A stretch of DNA of 64,000 nucleotides from Spirochaetota bacterium (GTDB lineage Bacteria > Spirochaetota > UBA4802 > UBA5550), in contig QKCL01000052.1 in assembly GCA_003246895.1 (NCBI GenBank), positions 1 to 64,000 on the forward strand, written 5' to 3'. Made by a program: the position numbers and the translations under genes. The first letter of the stretch is position 1, and each line of letters opens with the position of its first letter. This document shows, piece after piece, positions 27,321 to 58,862 of this stretch. The notes under the pieces are model-generated. The model searched no databases and had not been told where the DNA came from. It worked only from the letters and a program-made list of their open reading frames with translations.

Positions 27321-27402
27321 TTTTTTTGTATTTTTTGAACTTTTTTTTACCGAACAGGACTGAGCAGGACTGGCCAGGACTGGCCAGGACTGGAGAAATC
27401 CG
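27321..27402 (+). repeat. Phased T-tracts plus 10-bp direct repeats (copy A)
   Basis: T-runs start at 27321, 27331 and 27341, exactly 10 bp apart. From 27355 there are four consecutive 10-bp units CAGGACTGAG, CAGGACTGGC, CAGGACTGGC and CAGGACTGGA, then GAAATCCG. The final 18 bases (27385-27402) are identical to 57916-57933. The array ends 31 bp before the -24 element of a sigma-54 promoter. Phased T-tracts are expected to curve DNA; the repeats look like same-face activator sites. Confidence 0.8.
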
Positions 27403-27430
27403 TCCCCTCTCAGTTGGCCATTTCATAAAC

Positions 27431-27448
27431 TTGGCATAAAACATGCTT
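27431..27448 (+). promoter_or_regulatory. Sigma-54 promoter upstream of amylosucrase
   Basis: TTGGCATAAAACATGCTT carries GG (27433-27434) and GC (27445-27446) with exactly ten bases between, the invariant -24/-12 spacing of RpoN promoters. The element is preceded by the repeat array as in copy B. Confidence 0.75.
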
Positions 27449-27778
27449 TATATTTTGTACAATACAAGGAAGAGAAAAATATTATATGAACGATGAACAG
27501 GGATAAAAAAGCATATCATTAAAGGATTCTCCAATCCCAATCATTATGATTATTGACCCGATTAAAATGCACCAGGATATGAAATATAAATACAATATTC
27601 ATCCGTGCACATACGGCAAATACATGATTCATAAAGAATCTTTTATCTCCATGGATCCGACGTTTCTCAGCCCAGGTTCACAGCAGGACTTTACAATCCA
27701 AAAAGAAAATATTGGCAGATACATAATTATTGACATTATTTATCAATTAGTATTTGTTCCCAATTATTCTATTTTTAA

Positions 27779-29731
27779 ATGCAGGCAGAAAAATTGAATC
27801 CGGAAAATGAGAGAAGACAGATTGCTACGATTTTCAACAGGCTTTCGGACCTGGCTGAGAATTACTCAATTCATGCCGGCTCCAGAGACATTCTTGATTT
27901 CAAGGTGAGACTGATAAATCACTGGGAGGATCTCTACAACGACCTCAGGTCATTATACGGAGAAAGTGAGTGCTTTCAGGATAATCTCATTGATCTCATG
28001 GACCTCATGCTCCGGTCATGGAGCAAAAGGCCCGATGACCTTAAAATACACGACAAGTTGAGGGAGAAAAATCCAAAATGGCACCAGTCCCGGGACACCG
28101 TGGGCGGGGTACTTTATGTTGACCTCTTCAGCAGAAATCTCCGGGGGCTCCATGAACAGATAGATTACTTCAAGGAGATAGGCCTTACCTATCTTCATCT
28201 CATGCCTCTCTTTGCCGTACCACATGAGGAGAATGACGGAGGATACGCCGTAAGCAATTACAGGGCAGTGAACCCCGATCTGGGTTCATTTGATGAACTG
28301 TCTGAACTTGCAGTGCTTCTGAGACAGGAGGGAATAAGCCTTGTCCTCGATTTTGTATTCAACCACACTTCAAACGAACACAGATGGGCCATGGCTGCAA
28401 GAAACGGAGACCCGGAACATCAAAAATTTTACCACATATTCGACACACGGGAAATCCCGGACAGGTATGAAGAGACACTGAGGGAAATTTTTCCCACTGT
28501 AAGGAAGGGAAGTTTCACTTACTGCCAGGACTGCTCAAAATGGGTCTGGACGACCTTCAACAGCTACCAGTGGGACCTGAATTATTCCAATCAGAAAGTT
28601 TTCAACGCCATGACAGAAGAGATGCTTTATCTGGCAAATTCCGGAGTTGAAATATTAAGGCTTGATGCGGTTGCATTTATCTGGAAAAAGATGGGCACAA
28701 CATGTGAGAACCTCCCGGAAGCCCATACAATAATAAGGGCCTTCAATTCAATTGCAAGAATTGCAGCTCCGTCACTGCTCTTTAAATCCGAAGCTATTGT
28801 TCATCCAGATGATGTAATAAAGTACATAGGCACTGACCAGTGCCAGCTCTCATACAATCCAATGTATATGGCGCTGCTCTGGGAAGCAGCTGCGACAAGG
28901 AGCGTTTCGCTTTTACAGCATGCAATGTCAAAGAGGGTGACCATACCTGACGGATGTTCCTGGGTAAACTATCTGCGCTGCCACGATGATATCGGATGGA
29001 CATTTGATGACAACGATGCATGGGAAACCGGAATAAACCCCCATGACCACAGAAAATTTCTCAACAGCTTCTATACCGGAAGATTTGAGGGTACTTTCTC
29101 CAAGGGACTCCCCTTTCAGTTTAATCCTGAAACTGAGGATATGCGGGTTTCTGGAACACTGGCATCTCTTGCCGGGCTTGAACAGGCACTGGAACGCAAA
29201 GACCATCTCCTCATTGAAATGTCAGTTCTGAGAATCGCTATGCTCAGGAGCATCATAATAAGTTCAGCGGGAATCCCCCTTCTCTATCTGGGAGATGAAT
29301 GGGGCATGATGAATGACTATACATATCTCCACGACACCTCAAAGGCATCGGACAGCAGATGGGTTCACCGCTGCAGAAACAGATGGAGCAAAGGCGATTT
29401 CGAAAATTCCGATACAATTGAATGGCGGCTTTTCCACAATCTACAGAGGCTCATAAAACTCCGCAAAAAACTTCCCGCCATGAACAACGGGAAGATGACC
29501 ATTTTAAATTCAGGCAATGACCATGTCTATTCTTTCACAAGAAGCAACGGGTCACAGAAAATTCTTGTACTGGCAAATTTTACTGAAGCAGAACAGAGAA
29601 TCAATTTAAAACATATTCACGGCCTGGAACGGATCAGCGAAGCCCATGACCACACATCTGAAAATAATCCGGTCAATAGGGAGAATATTTTATTGACTCC
29701 ATACCAGTTCCTGTGGCTTGAAATAAAGTAG
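27779..29731 (+). CDS. Amylosucrase-type glycoside hydrolase family 13 enzyme
   Basis: This 650-residue (beta/alpha)8-barrel enzyme probably uses sucrose to extend alpha-1,4-glucan, releasing fructose. It has an N-terminal helical domain (1-90). The GH13 motifs are LVLDFVFNHTSNEH near 191-204, the nucleophile in EILRLDAVAFIWKKMGTTCENLP near 293-315, the acid/base Glu in LLFKSEAIVHPDDV near 337-350, and NYLRCHDDIGWTF near 396-408. These match amylosucrases closely rather than generic amylases. A start at ATG 27779 or TTG 27794 is possible, since neither has a clear ribosome site. Expression likely depends on the sigma-54 promoter 330 bp upstream. Confidence 0.87.
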   Translation: MQAEKLNPENERRQIATIFNRLSDLAENYSIHAGSRDILDFKVRLINHWEDLYNDLRSLYGESECFQDNLIDLMDLMLRSWSKRPDDLKIHDKLREKNPKWHQSRDTVGGVLYVDLFSRNLRGLHEQIDYFKEIGLTYLHLMPLFAVPHEENDGGYAVSNYRAVNPDLGSFDELSELAVLLRQEGISLVLDFVFNHTSNEHRWAMAARNGDPEHQKFYHIFDTREIPDRYEETLREIFPTVRKGSFTYCQDCSKWVWTTFNSYQWDLNYSNQKVFNAMTEEMLYLANSGVEILRLDAVAFIWKKMGTTCENLPEAHTIIRAFNSIARIAAPSLLFKSEAIVHPDDVIKYIGTDQCQLSYNPMYMALLWEAAATRSVSLLQHAMSKRVTIPDGCSWVNYLRCHDDIGWTFDDNDAWETGINPHDHRKFLNSFYTGRFEGTFSKGLPFQFNPETEDMRVSGTLASLAGLEQALERKDHLLIEMSVLRIAMLRSIIISSAGIPLLYLGDEWGMMNDYTYLHDTSKASDSRWVHRCRNRWSKGDFENSDTIEWRLFHNLQRLIKLRKKLPAMNNGKMTILNSGNDHVYSFTRSNGSQKILVLANFTEAEQRINLKHIHGLERISEAHDHTSENNPVNRENILLTPYQFLWLEIK

Positions 29732-54421: not shown

Positions 54422-56407
54422 ATGAGCCGTCTCTCTTTTTCAGTCCAGACAACAACACCTGACAGCGCCGCAAGGGCCTGTACATTTACCACACTCCACA
54501 ACAAAGTGGAGACACCTGTATTCATGCCCGTAGCAACAATGGCGGCACTGAGGTCACAGCATACAGACAGTGTGGAGAGCATGGGTTTCCCTGTGCTGCT
54601 TGCAAACACATACCACCTTCTGCTTCGACCTGGCATCGAGGTATTCAGGGACTTCGGCGGCATACACGGCTTCATGCAGTGGCCCAGATCTGTACTGACA
54701 GACTCGGGCGGATTCCAGATCTTTTCTCTCTCAAAAAATGTGAAGATCACAGATAAAGGCGCATCCTTCAGAAGCTATGTTGACGGAAGAGAAATACTCC
54801 TCACTCCTTCAAAAAGCATTGAAACACAGCGGCACATAAACAGCGATATAATGATGGCACTGGACCAGTGCATAAACTCAACCTCATCAAAAGAGGAGTG
54901 CATGGCAGCACTCGACATCACGGCGAGGTGGGCGCAGGAGAGCCTCGCCGCAAGGGGCGACTCACCGCAGTCCATCTTCGGAATTGTACAGGGGGGATGT
55001 TTTGAAGAGCTTAGAAGACTGAGCGCAAGCCAGATAACATCTCTCCCCTTTGACGGCTTTGCCATCGGAGGACTTGCCGTGGGGGAAACAGACGATGAAC
55101 GCAAGGATATGACAGAGCTCACGGCAGCACTTCTTCCCGCAAACTACCCGCGGTACCTCATGGGAGTGGGAACCCCCATAGACCTGCTGGAGGCTGTTCA
55201 CAGAGGGGTGGACATGTTCGACTGCATTCTGCCAACAGCCATGGGCCAGCAGGGTGTCGCATGGACAACACACGGCCGCATAGAACTGCGCCGCACTGTC
55301 CATAAATTTGTCCACCGCCCCCTTGACGAGGAATGCACCTGCCCCACATGCAGAAAATATTCCAGGGCATACCTCCACCACCTGATAAAGTCAGATGAGT
55401 ATCTGGGAGCCCAGCTTGTGGGCATACACAACCTCCACTTCTACAAGACGCTCATGGACACAATGCGCGCGAAAATACTGGAAGGCACATTCTTTGAATA
55501 CTATAAATTCATGAAGGAGGAGCTGGTGCGCCCGGACATGGACCACCCGGTCACTCCTCCGAAAAAGAAAAAAAGAAAAAACCATGACTGCCTGGAAAAC
55601 TGGTCTGTCATTCAGTCCCCCGAAGGGTGGTACACCATCATGGACAGCGAGTCGGGAGAAAAGTTCCACTCCGTCAATGACCCATACGAAGAGGCGCGGT
55701 CACTCTATATAGAACCTCTCTTTGAAAAGCTGAAGAACAGTGACATGACAGTGTGGGATGTGGGCCTTGGAGGGGGAACCAACTCCATGCTTGCTCTTAT
55801 GGAATATGAAAAACGCATCACCCATGGGGAGAATCTTAAAAAGTTCAGGGTCCTCAGTTTTGAAAAGGACCTTAACCCCTTCATACTGGCCAACCGTCAG
55901 AACAGGCGATTTCCCCATATGCATCACAGGGCTCCTTCAAAATTCATAAGTGAGGGAGAGTGGATTTCAGATGATGCAATGGTTCAGTGGAAGCTCATTG
56001 AAGGAGATTTCACTGAGACAATGACACAAGCAGAAAAGCCTGACATGATCTGGTACGATATGTTCTCAATAAAAAGCGTACCCCGGCTTTGGGGATACTC
56101 TGTATTCTCAAAACTTGGCGCATACATTCAGAACAGGGAGTGTTCCCTTCACACCTACTCTGACTCAACTGCACTGAGGGCTGCACTCCTTGCATCGGGC
56201 TTCAGTGTTGCAGAGGGCCCTGCAGCAGGTCCCAAAGCAGCAACCACAAAGGCCTTTCTTAACAGTATGCCAGAGGGCGAAACATTTCTTGATCAGTCAT
56301 GGCTGGCGAGGTTCAAAAGAAGCAGCGCACAGTTTGTGGAGGGCACCAGTGAGGAAGATCAGAAGGTCATCCTTGAAAGAGTGGTGAACCACAAACAGTT
56401 CAAATAA
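54422..56407 (+). CDS. tgt: Fused queuine tRNA-ribosyltransferase and MnmC-like methyltransferase
   Basis: The 661-residue protein joins two tRNA wobble-base enzymes. Residues 1-372 are bacterial TGT, which exchanges guanine-34 for a queuosine precursor. They include Asp94 in DSGGFQ, LDQC at 147-150, GGLAVGE near 216-222, the nucleophile Asp267 in MFDCILPT, and zinc ligands CTCPTC (305-310) with His336. The usual RNARNG after PT is replaced by AMGQQG, a variant subfamily. A lysine-rich linker (about 378-388) leads to a MnmC/DUF752-like methyltransferase with VWDVGLGGGTNS (444-455), LSFEKD, and IWYDMFS. The MnmC oxidase half is absent. Confidence 0.88.
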   Translation: MSRLSFSVQTTTPDSAARACTFTTLHNKVETPVFMPVATMAALRSQHTDSVESMGFPVLLANTYHLLLRPGIEVFRDFGGIHGFMQWPRSVLTDSGGFQIFSLSKNVKITDKGASFRSYVDGREILLTPSKSIETQRHINSDIMMALDQCINSTSSKEECMAALDITARWAQESLAARGDSPQSIFGIVQGGCFEELRRLSASQITSLPFDGFAIGGLAVGETDDERKDMTELTAALLPANYPRYLMGVGTPIDLLEAVHRGVDMFDCILPTAMGQQGVAWTTHGRIELRRTVHKFVHRPLDEECTCPTCRKYSRAYLHHLIKSDEYLGAQLVGIHNLHFYKTLMDTMRAKILEGTFFEYYKFMKEELVRPDMDHPVTPPKKKKRKNHDCLENWSVIQSPEGWYTIMDSESGEKFHSVNDPYEEARSLYIEPLFEKLKNSDMTVWDVGLGGGTNSMLALMEYEKRITHGENLKKFRVLSFEKDLNPFILANRQNRRFPHMHHRAPSKFISEGEWISDDAMVQWKLIEGDFTETMTQAEKPDMIWYDMFSIKSVPRLWGYSVFSKLGAYIQNRECSLHTYSDSTALRAALLASGFSVAEGPAAGPKAATTKAFLNSMPEGETFLDQSWLARFKRSSAQFVEGTSEEDQKVILERVVNHKQFK

Positions 56408-56594: not shown

Positions 56595-57182
56595 TCACTC
56601 GATTTCCCCATAAACGCCGTCCCATTTTTCCGGGTCGACCAGCTTTATTCCCGGGACGGGGTTTTCTGTAAAAAATGAAATCAATTTATCCTCAATCATT
56701 ATCATTCTGCGCAAAAGATGAACACGATAGATGTCCCCGTGAAACACATCCGAGTCTTTGATAACCAGTTTTTCCACCAAACTAATACCTTTCACGACAC
56801 CATCAATAACGGTGGCATTACATTCTGTTTTATCGGTATCCACACAATCCACTATCCCCAATATATTTGCCGCATAAAACCCTGATTTCGGTGAACCGCC
56901 TTTACGCTCTATCACTGTTGCAGGGTAATAATCGATATTGTCAACATGAAGACTGGTTAAAGATTGCCTGAGCCTCTCTGACACCACGGGGCATGCATCA
57001 TCACTCACCATAAAGTCTGCAATCCCCTTCGATGAATCTTCACATATAAACTCCAGCCGCGATAAATCGTATCTGTTTTTAATTGGTACAGCCTTGTTCC
57101 AGACAGATTTAAAACAGGAGGCATTATCAGACAGCGTTAAAGTTGATACTGATACATAATCCGGACACAAAAACCTTTTCAT
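56595..57182 (-). CDS. Immunity protein of the Imm11/DUF1629 type
   Basis: The 195-residue acidic soluble protein has the pattern of DUF1629/Imm11 family members: a mixed N-terminal domain, then FMVSDDACPVVSERLRQSLTSL, VDCVDTDKTECNAT, LVIKDSDVFHGDIYRVHLLRRMIMIEDKLISFF and a PGIKLVDP end. Such proteins neutralise the C-terminal toxins of contact-dependent or polymorphic toxin systems. Its ATG starts immediately after a stop codon closing a 46-codon stub that reads as a toxin tail (57183-57320). That gap of zero bases is typical of toxin-immunity pairs. The rest of the toxin is absent, so this is an orphan immunity gene. Confidence 0.65.
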   Translation of the reverse strand: MKRFLCPDYVSVSTLTLSDNASCFKSVWNKAVPIKNRYDLSRLEFICEDSSKGIADFMVSDDACPVVSERLRQSLTSLHVDNIDYYPATVIERKGGSPKSGFYAANILGIVDCVDTDKTECNATVIDGVVKGISLVEKLVIKDSDVFHGDIYRVHLLRRMIMIEDKLISFFTENPVPGIKLVDPEKWDGVYGEIE

Positions 57183-57323: not shown

Positions 57324-57860
57324 CTCAGGTTTTTACTGCACACAACAACTGTAAACTACTTCCGATATGAGGTCCAATGTCTTTTACAAAGCATTTTGCC
57401 CTTAATACACGGTATACTATTCAACACAGTTTCCTAAAAAAAAGAATCTCTTCTCTGAAATGGTGCACACCAGGTGCACCCTCGTTAGTTTTCATGGCTC
57501 ACCACTTTCTTATAACGTGATGCTCATAACCGCAATGCGGATATGGGTGCAAATACGCATTGCGGTTATGGGACTCTCTGAGAATAGAGCATAATGACTG
57601 AAAGTCAAGTGGACTTTTTATTCTTTACTATGGAATTTCCTGAAACCTTTGCATAAATCATAGCGGCTTTTCTACTCCGGTGCACTGTAAATTCCTGAAT
57701 ATATACCGTATAAATTCCATGTTCACAGAGGTGTGCCGCAGCACTTTTTCAGTGAAAAACCCGGTAAAATTCACCTATAATTCACCAAATCTGACTGAAT
57801 CTCCTCTCCTCAAATTGCTCTTTAATGGTCTTCAGGTACGGGAAATGAAAAAAAATGAAC
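57324..57860. other. Non-coding region with hairpins
   Basis: This region contains a small GGTGCAC/GTGCACC hairpin (57462-57468/57474-57480) and the 15-bp perfect inverted repeat at 57525-57570. A 97-codon frame at 57680-57973 runs through the repeat element and is not credible. Confidence 0.4.
57525..57570. repeat. Perfect 15-bp inverted repeat
   Basis: CATAACCGCAATGCG (57525-57539) and its exact complement (57556-57570) flank a 16-base spacer. No flanking gene ends here, so it may be an end-repeat relic or a strong RNA hairpin. Confidence 0.5.
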
Positions 57861-57933
57861 TTTTTTTGCCTTTTTTTGCACTTTTTTTTATTGGAGAAGA
57901 CTGGACAAGACTGGGCAGGACTGGAGAAATCCG
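57861..57933 (+). repeat. Phased T-tracts plus 10-bp direct repeats (copy B)
   Basis: T-runs start at 57861, 57871 and 57882, close to 10 bp apart. Then come three 10-bp units GAAGACTGGA, CAAGACTGGG and CAGGACTGGA (57896-57925), followed by GAAATCCG. The last 18 bases equal those of copy A at 27385-27402. The array ends 32 bp before a sigma-54 -24 element. Confidence 0.8.
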
Positions 57934-57962
57934 AAGCACCCCAAGAGACCTCTTTTGGCAAT

Positions 57963-57980
57963 TTGGCACATAATGTGCTT
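57963..57980 (+). promoter_or_regulatory. Sigma-54 promoter upstream of enoyl-CoA hydratase
   Basis: TTGGCACATAATGTGCTT has GG (57965-57966) and GC (57977-57978) ten bases apart, with the favoured TGGCAC form of the -24 box. A leader of about 125 bases runs to the start at 58116, containing a CGGTCTCGACCG palindrome. Confidence 0.8.
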
Positions 57981-58115
57981 GTAGACATATAGGAAAATCG
58001 GTCTCGACCGTTCCCTACACACCTCGACATGACATTATGTTTTTTAATTGATAAATAGATTCATTTCACCTAATCTGAAAGAGGCATCCATAAAATTACA
58101 TGTAAGGAGAAGTCT

Positions 58116-58862
58116 ATGCTGCAGTTTACAAATGAAGACAGTTACAATATTATCCGCCTTGATAACGGTATTCCCAATGCCCTGAGCTCTTCTCTCATAG
58201 ACCGGTTTGACAATCTTCTTGATGAGGCGGCAGAGCAGAGACTCCCCCTGGTCATTGCAGGCAATACCAAGTTCTTTTCCATGGGCCTGAACCTGCCCGA
58301 GGTTATTGAATTTTCCCGGGACAAGTTCACAGATTACATTAAAAAATTTGATATGCTTGTTCATAAACTATATACACTGCCTGTTCCCGTTGTCTGCGCC
58401 CTGGAAGGACATGCTGTTGCCGGCGGAGCCATTCTTGCCCTGGCATGCGACATGAGGATCGGATCAGACGAATCAAAAAAGTTCGGCTGCAACGAGGCCC
58501 AGCTCGGGGTCCCTGTACCATACCTCCCGTCAATGATTTTCCGCAATATTGCCGGCCATCAGGCAGCAGATAAACTTATGTATCAGGGAACCCTCCTCTC
58601 CTTTCAGGATGCATTGAAATACGGGCTCATCGACAGGCTTGTACCTGCAGCGGATATTGTTTCATCTGCAATTGAAAGTGCAAAACTCATGGTACAGGGG
58701 TCAGTTGAAGCTTTCTCAATAATGAAGGCCATGAAGACAGAACCTGTCAGTGAAAAATTTCAGAAGCATAATGACAGCTATACAGAGAGGTTCATTCAAT
58801 GCTGGTATGATCCGTCGAGCCAGAACCTGATCCATCTGGCAGCCCGGCACTTTCAGAATTAG
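58116..58862 (+). CDS. Enoyl-CoA hydratase/isomerase family protein
   Basis: The 248-residue crotonase-fold protein probably hydrates, isomerises or hydrolyses an acyl-CoA. The oxyanion-hole segments are AGNTKFFSMGLNLPEV near 49-64 and ALEGHAVAGGAILALACDMRIG near 92-113. The catalytic Glu region reads CNEAQLGVPVPYLP near 122-135. The substitution pattern leaves hydratase against isomerase open. AAGGAGA precedes the ATG. It is alone under a sigma-54 promoter of the same special type as amylosucrase. Confidence 0.85.
   Translation: MLQFTNEDSYNIIRLDNGIPNALSSSLIDRFDNLLDEAAEQRLPLVIAGNTKFFSMGLNLPEVIEFSRDKFTDYIKKFDMLVHKLYTLPVPVVCALEGHAVAGGAILALACDMRIGSDESKKFGCNEAQLGVPVPYLPSMIFRNIAGHQAADKLMYQGTLLSFQDALKYGLIDRLVPAADIVSSAIESAKLMVQGSVEAFSIMKAMKTEPVSEKFQKHNDSYTERFIQCWYDPSSQNLIHLAARHFQN

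Follow-up and report, generated by a model that had tools for sequence, protein, structure and literature searches.

The sigma-54 form of RNA polymerase requires an AAA+ activator, and sigma-54 activators are the textbook enhancer binders, with dyad sites and DNA looping. Short promoter-bearing sequences dispersed in one genome before unrelated genes are known as putative mobile promoters. PilR of P. aeruginosa belongs to the enhancer-binding proteins (EBPs) whose motifs are direct repeats or multiple half-sites. EBP motifs are mostly dyads or inverted repeats (PMC6615313, PMC3333781); a direct-repeat site is on record for DVU2394, an NtrC-family regulator of D. vulgaris (PMC3333781), and DVU2956 has a three-half-site motif (PMC4641369). 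Most D. vulgaris sigma-54 promoters with a known EBP site have that site within 100 nt (PMC4641369). IHF-independent sigma-54 promoters carry A/T-rich bends, which are located between the site and the promoter (PMC3897727).

The DNA analysed here (the window, 64 kb in total) is a portion of contig C62 of a 3.57 Mb genome in 95 contigs. Two copies of a composite element were read directly in its sequence, copy A at 27321-27448 and copy B at 57861-57980. Their parts and putative target genes are as follows.

27321-27348, + strand: T-tracts of copy A (T7 at 27321-27327, T6 at 27331-27336, T8 at 27341-27348; ~10-12 bp spacing)
27350-27402, + strand: array of copy A in the genome-wide register, five units CCGAACAGGA CTGAGCAGGA CTGGCCAGGA CTGGCCAGGA CTGGAGAAAT, then CCG; lag-10 identity 0.77
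27355-27402, + strand: array of copy A in the register of the original prediction, CAGGACTGAG CAGGACTGGC CAGGACTGGC CAGGACTGGA GAAATCCG
27403-27430, + strand: spacer of copy A, nearly fixed in length and poorly conserved in sequence
27431-27448, + strand: sigma-54 promoter of copy A, TTGGCATAAAACATGCTT (exact GG-N10-GC), predicted start near 27458
27779-29731, + strand: putative target of copy A, amylosucrase (GH13), ~320 nt past the predicted start; Pfam Alpha-amylase
57861-57889, + strand: three T-tracts of copy B (57861-57867, 57871-57877, 57882-57889)
57891-57940, + strand: array of copy B, TTGGAGAAGA CTGGACAAGA CTGGGCAGGA CTGGAGAAAT CCGAAGCACC
57941-57962, + strand: spacer of copy B, read directly
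57963-57980, + strand: sigma-54 promoter of copy B, TTGGCACATAATGTGCTT, read directly; predicted start near 57990
58116-58862, + strand: putative target of copy B, enoyl-CoA hydratase/isomerase family; Pfam ECH_1 6.5e-36

The direct reading bore out the original prediction of a composite sigma-54 element with an exact GG-N10-GC promoter. Within copy A, the tandem CAGGACTGRN repeats span 27355-27394 and GAAATCCG runs to 27402; in the register first proposed, unit 1 (CAGGACTGAG) has one mismatch relative to CAGGACTGG. In that register copy B reads GAAGACTGGA CAAGACTGGG CAGGACTGGA GAAATCCG, with its last base at 57933. The 18-base end CAGGACTGGAGAAATCCG is identical in the two copies, which lie 30 kb apart, and a third exact copy of this 18-mer was found on contig C61. 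The tandem units ending in GAAATCCG in copy A and the same 18-base end in copy B had been described correctly, while the distances from GAAATCCG to GG, given as 31 and 32 bp, were counted as 30 and 31 bp. The earlier description was right within one base, and it missed six further copies as well as the T-tracts, which lie inside the interval that it had delimited and are a conserved part of the element. GAAATCCG was rejected as a separate end motif, as it consists of a portion of the last unit (CTGGAGAAAT) followed by CCG. The palindrome CCAG-GA-CTGG in copy A was also rejected, as the other copies do not keep it.

Further features were observed on the 5' side of copy B. A near-perfect 21-bp inverted repeat with a 4-nt loop (CATAACCGCAATGCGGATATG / CAAATACGCATTGCGGTTATG) is located at 57525-57570, ~290 bp 5' of the T-tracts. 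The minus-strand gene at 56595-57182 encodes an Imm11-family immunity-like protein, with no recognised toxin in the part examined. A single plus-strand frame of 661 aa (54422-56407) combines Tgt (tRNA-guanine transglycosylase, TIGR00430) with an MnmC2-like Methyltransf_30 domain, i.e., two wobble-base enzymes in one chain.

A sequence-only model was built from three copies (A, B and the C61 copy) and run against the genome. The search gave eight full-length matches with E-values from 6e-36 to 2e-11, while the next match had an E-value of 0.012. The eight copies are distributed over contigs C61, C62 (two copies), C42, C65, C28, C13 and C66, each in a different gene context. The proposal that one layout is kept in unrelated gaps is thus upheld, for eight gaps and not two. 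All eight copies presented the same plan, in which three T-tracts are followed by an array of 10-bp direct repeats, a spacer and a -24/-12 promoter with exact GG-N10-GC spacing in a YTGGCAY...TGCWT-like context. In the aligned copies, the T-tracts are followed by an A and the 10-bp units, the spacer and TTGGCAYN6TGC. Three runs of 5-9 T, with starts ~9-12 bp apart, were present in every copy, and the C42 copy has a fourth T run farther upstream. The lag-10 self-identity of the arrays was 0.67-0.77 in all eight copies (shuffle p <= 0.0002). A chance repeat beside a chance -24/-12 sequence has nothing in its favour except the low complexity of the T-tracts, and it is already refuted by the number of copies, the gap in E-values behind them and control patterns that gave 0 matches. 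The eight copies form a coherent and strongly non-random promoter family.

The arrays comprise 37 repeat units over the eight copies, with 4-5 units per array. The unit consensus is C-Y-G-R-A-C-A-R-G-W, repeated in steps of 10 and occasionally 11 bp, and the unit is better written as CYGRNCARGW than in the form first proposed. A dyad test showed that the unit CCGAACAAGA is not self-complementary, and the arrays are direct rather than inverted repeats. With the first G of GG taken as -24, the units start at ~-58, -68, -78, -88, -98 and -107, within ~1 bp in all copies, and the array extends from ~-107 to -48. This fixed register with the promoter in all eight copies agrees with the earlier claim that the units lie on one DNA face. 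Array lengths vary among the copies in ~10-bp steps, and the distance from the last T-tract to GG (64, 66, 75, 75, 75, 75, 76 and 84) changes by approximately one helical turn. The 10-bp steps suggest selection on phase, without proof, because the copies share ancestry and units could slip by 10 bp. The better argument for phasing is the spacer, whose length is constant and whose sequence has diverged.

The mean pairwise identity between copies was highest in the promoter (0.85) and the T-tracts (0.79). It fell to 0.45 for the spacer and 0.44 for the array (ungapped, in register), and to the random level of 0.26-0.28 in both flanks; the T-tracts are better conserved than the array. BLAST alignments between copies begin at most ~50 bp before the T8 end (94 for C61/C65) and finish at most ~10 bp past -12, i.e., at the predicted start site. 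What the copies have kept thus coincides exactly with the control region as far as the start site. Such sharp limits at both ends, with unrelated flanks, would also be left by a dispersed repeat, namely a mobile or propagating promoter cassette whose sites reflect copying and not a shared regulon, some of them being orphans. This reading is an improbable one. Neither target-site duplications nor terminal inverted repeats were seen by eye at the homology limits, and conservation is concentrated in the T-tracts, the units and -24/-12, with the spacer keeping its length and not its sequence. Propagation and function are not mutually exclusive.

The association with sigma-54 was examined throughout the genome. 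The pattern TTGGCAYN6TGCTT had six genome matches (control 0), all of which carry the element; the remaining two copies deviate from it in the last bases. The pattern T7-N55-85-TTGGYAYN6TGC matched all eight copies and nif in this genome (control 0), and it was near background in relatives. The array start TTTTTACCGAACARNNCYGR is exact at six of the eight copies and differs in the other two, and other genome matches to it start at two mismatches, which equals the control level. Arrays without a -24/-12 promoter, whose wide occurrence was to count against the original prediction, were searched for genome-wide with the model and the patterns, and none was found. A conserved site upstream of -24 co-occurs with the promoter in every copy.

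The genome encodes RpoN (TIGR02395, 374 bits; cut-off 277) and five true EBPs (strong PF00158 matches), on contigs C1, C13, C21, C42 and C67. Canonical sigma-54 promoters without the element were identified ahead of amtB (TTGGCACGTATTTTGCAT at L055:8645), nifH (C31) and an orp-like operon behind a PAS-type EBP (L049:4725). Given that these three lack it, the element is not general to sigma-54 promoters here, and it appears to mark one sigma-54 regulon. The nifH locus (G000:C31, L131:2839-4500) holds nifH, two PII-like genes and a nifD-like start behind its canonical promoter, from which the organism looks diazotrophic. At L049:3252-8001, the PAS-EBP is located beside two MinD/Mrp-type ATPases with ferredoxin domains and a Nitro_FeMo-Co protein; this locus, with its own sigma-54 site, resembles the orp system of Desulfovibrio.

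Taken from these comparisons, the element is probably the complete control region of a one-regulon sigma-54 promoter family, with the array as the upstream activating site of one EBP. The array is read as the activator site because, besides the T-tracts, it is the sole sequence-specific conserved upstream feature in the homologous block, and sigma-54 depends on an AAA+ activator. Direct-repeat units spaced by one helical turn imply that DNA-binding domains line up head to tail along one face. The EBP would bind through a Fis-type helix-turn-helix, with one subunit per helical turn from ~-107 to -48. The upstream T-tracts would curve the DNA intrinsically or offer a surface for contact with the RNA polymerase alpha-CTD or a nucleoid protein, so that no IHF-bent loop would be needed for the AAA+ ring to reach the neighbouring sigma-54 polymerase. 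There is little room for a bent loop, since the last unit starts 33-43 bp above GG; a check for a bend site found ~24-34 bp of poorly conserved sequence between the last unit and GG, and the T-tracts upstream of the array. The T-tracts, located behind the array, may bring the activator into position for the polymerase through bends or contacts. A wedge model placed T-tract curvature between the 49th and the 99.8th window percentile, with mostly moderate values, and strong intrinsic curvature is not regarded as shown.

The array could instead bind a regulator that is not an EBP, for instance an OmpR/PhoB-type response regulator or a repressor, with the AAA+ activator acting from elsewhere or from solution. 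The PhoB/OmpR family classically binds head-to-tail direct repeats of 10-11 bp, and PhoB boxes are direct repeats (PMC3333781); the units are non-palindromic in most copies, while the EBP sites known so far are mostly inverted repeats (PMC6615313, PMC3333781). We nevertheless consider it unlikely. Homology ends ~48 bp above the T8 end, and the element thus contains no second conserved site at which the obligatory activator could bind. In addition, PhoB/OmpR boxes serve sigma-70-type promoters, whereas every copy of the element is tied to a -24/-12 promoter, at which PhoB-type activators are not known to open complexes.

If the array is the site of one EBP, the likeliest activator would be the DctD-like EBP of the C13 operon, which has its own copy ahead and would then be autoregulated. 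Genomic context makes this protein the first candidate, tentatively so, because a copy precedes it, its matches are distant and the EBPs on C1, C42 and C67 fit less well. Comparison with 19 genomes of the same family gave distant matches only (<= 42% identity, domain-level), and the best full-length match anywhere was 42%, in G026; the protein thus appears lineage-specific, like the element. The C1 EBP, in contrast, has 48-53% matches in family members without the element. The C42 PAS-EBP adjoins the orp-like operon and the C67 GAF-EBP adjoins amtB, and both are less likely partners because these neighbouring operons carry canonical promoters.

The original prediction placed copy A upstream of amylosucrase, and the closest PDB match of the encoded protein is indeed an amylosucrase (E 3e-199). 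The putative target of copy B is the first gene of a co-directional run, with AAGGAG ahead of its ATG, ~125 nt past the predicted start. The other six copies face the following genes.

C61 copy: PAS-bearing hybrid histidine kinase
C28 copy: Fe-only hydrogenase-type protein
C65 copy: CxxCxxCC protein, then a TauE/SafE family transporter
C13 copy: operon of sensor kinase, DctD-like EBP and TRAP transporter
C42 copy: convergent ahcY
C66 copy: convergent hxlR, with a nitroreductase gene beyond

Two copies, on C42 and C66, are without an obvious protein-coding target, as they point at convergent genes. These two copies without a same-strand gene ahead, and an IS3-type transposase adjoining the C13 copy, lean toward the dispersed repeat, while the six copies that head a same-direction gene speak against it. 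The transposase pair (L052:8742-9817) lies directly 5' of the C13 copy and is divergent from it. At the C66 locus (L053:5049-6197), the minus-strand element reads antisense through hxlR toward the nitroreductase gene, a possible antisense (excludon-like) arrangement. Two further similar patches of 34 and 42 bp were observed between the C61 (~700-830 bp upstream) and C65 (~260-740 bp upstream) loci (L019/L050).

The promoters might also drive small RNAs and not the downstream genes, as sigma-54 does for the Qrr RNAs of Vibrio. The leaders of ~100-330 nt, a strong intrinsic-terminator-like hairpin ~190 nt after the predicted start in the C28 leader, and the two copies that face convergent genes are consistent with such transcripts. 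The sequence past the start is not common to the copies (identity 0.28, i.e., random), the other leaders have no comparable terminator, and no Rfam match was found within the window, and this explanation is quite improbable.

The distribution of the element was then assessed in other genomes. With an eight-copy model and the T-tract/promoter pattern, the element was not found in 97 relatives, of which 19 belong to the same family and 0 to the same genus; the filters of this large search were stricter, and weak matches may be lost. The exact junction pattern gave one chance match only in 84,980 species genomes, in an Anaerolineaceae genome where no promoter accompanies it, and no match in viral contigs and plasmids. 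Two-mismatch matches in G048 and G056 were also attributed to chance, with neither T-tract nor promoter adjoining. Weak model matches in 12 relatives were read individually. The match in G001 consists of T-tracts only, and G077 has a 10-bp tandem array of a similar unit in a locus full of tandem repeats, without T-tract or -24/-12; both were rejected. In G049 (L062, L070, L072), three similar intergenic blocks have T-tracts ~100 bp before TTGGTATAAAACATGC. The sequence between them differs from the element and homology is not claimed; the blocks may represent another family of repeated sigma-54 promoters, separate from this one, in a distant relative. The absence of the element from every relative searched, and likewise of the copy A amylosucrase from 58 relatives, is a further point for the dispersed repeat. 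Under the control-region reading, duplication would have carried the cassette to unrelated genes, of which some were probably acquired.

The element can now be set against the described systems. Like EBP promoters with upstream activating sites (NifA, NtrC, FhlA; TGT-N10-12-ACA), it has an exact GG-N10-GC, a site within ~110 bp, and RpoN and EBPs encoded in the genome. Unlike these, its site is a phase-locked tandem direct repeat and not an inverted repeat, its T-tracts lie upstream of the site and not between site and promoter, and there is little room for IHF. DVU2394, DVU2956 and PilR indicate that direct or multiple half-sites can serve as the target of an NtrC-family activator; the element differs in its 4-5 contiguous 10-bp units, the attached T-tracts and eight copies per genome. 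With PhoB/OmpR boxes it shares head-to-tail direct repeats of 10-11 bp. Like putative mobile promoters, it is dispersed through one genome before unrelated genes, except that here the dispersed unit comprises the entire enhancer plus promoter, and sigma-54 is the sigma factor. The array does lie near the promoter, as had been claimed, but the contrast with a distant enhancer was overstated; nearness as such is not novel, because sites within 100 nt are common (PMC4641369). The claim that no such element is described may hold for the full architecture, which was not found in the literature searched; a direct-repeat site is on record for at least one NtrC-family regulator (PMC3333781).

In its boldest and so far doubtful form, the proposal is that the activator polymerises head to tail on the phased repeats behind the polymerase, with the T-tracts replacing the IHF loop, and that this self-contained cassette spread in one lineage, bringing unrelated and new genes under one EBP. 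If true, a polymerising-activator cassette would represent a new geometry of sigma-54 activation together with regulon growth by promoter copying. Eight promoters with a phased direct-repeat activator site next to the polymerase would test how obligatory the dyad-plus-loop geometry is, and the genome offers its own contrast, with promoters that have or lack the element served by the same RpoN. The element owes its value to this clean, testable deviation from the dyad-plus-loop scheme and to the spread of an entire promoter cassette, a regulon having seemingly grown as the complete cassette was copied in front of new genes.
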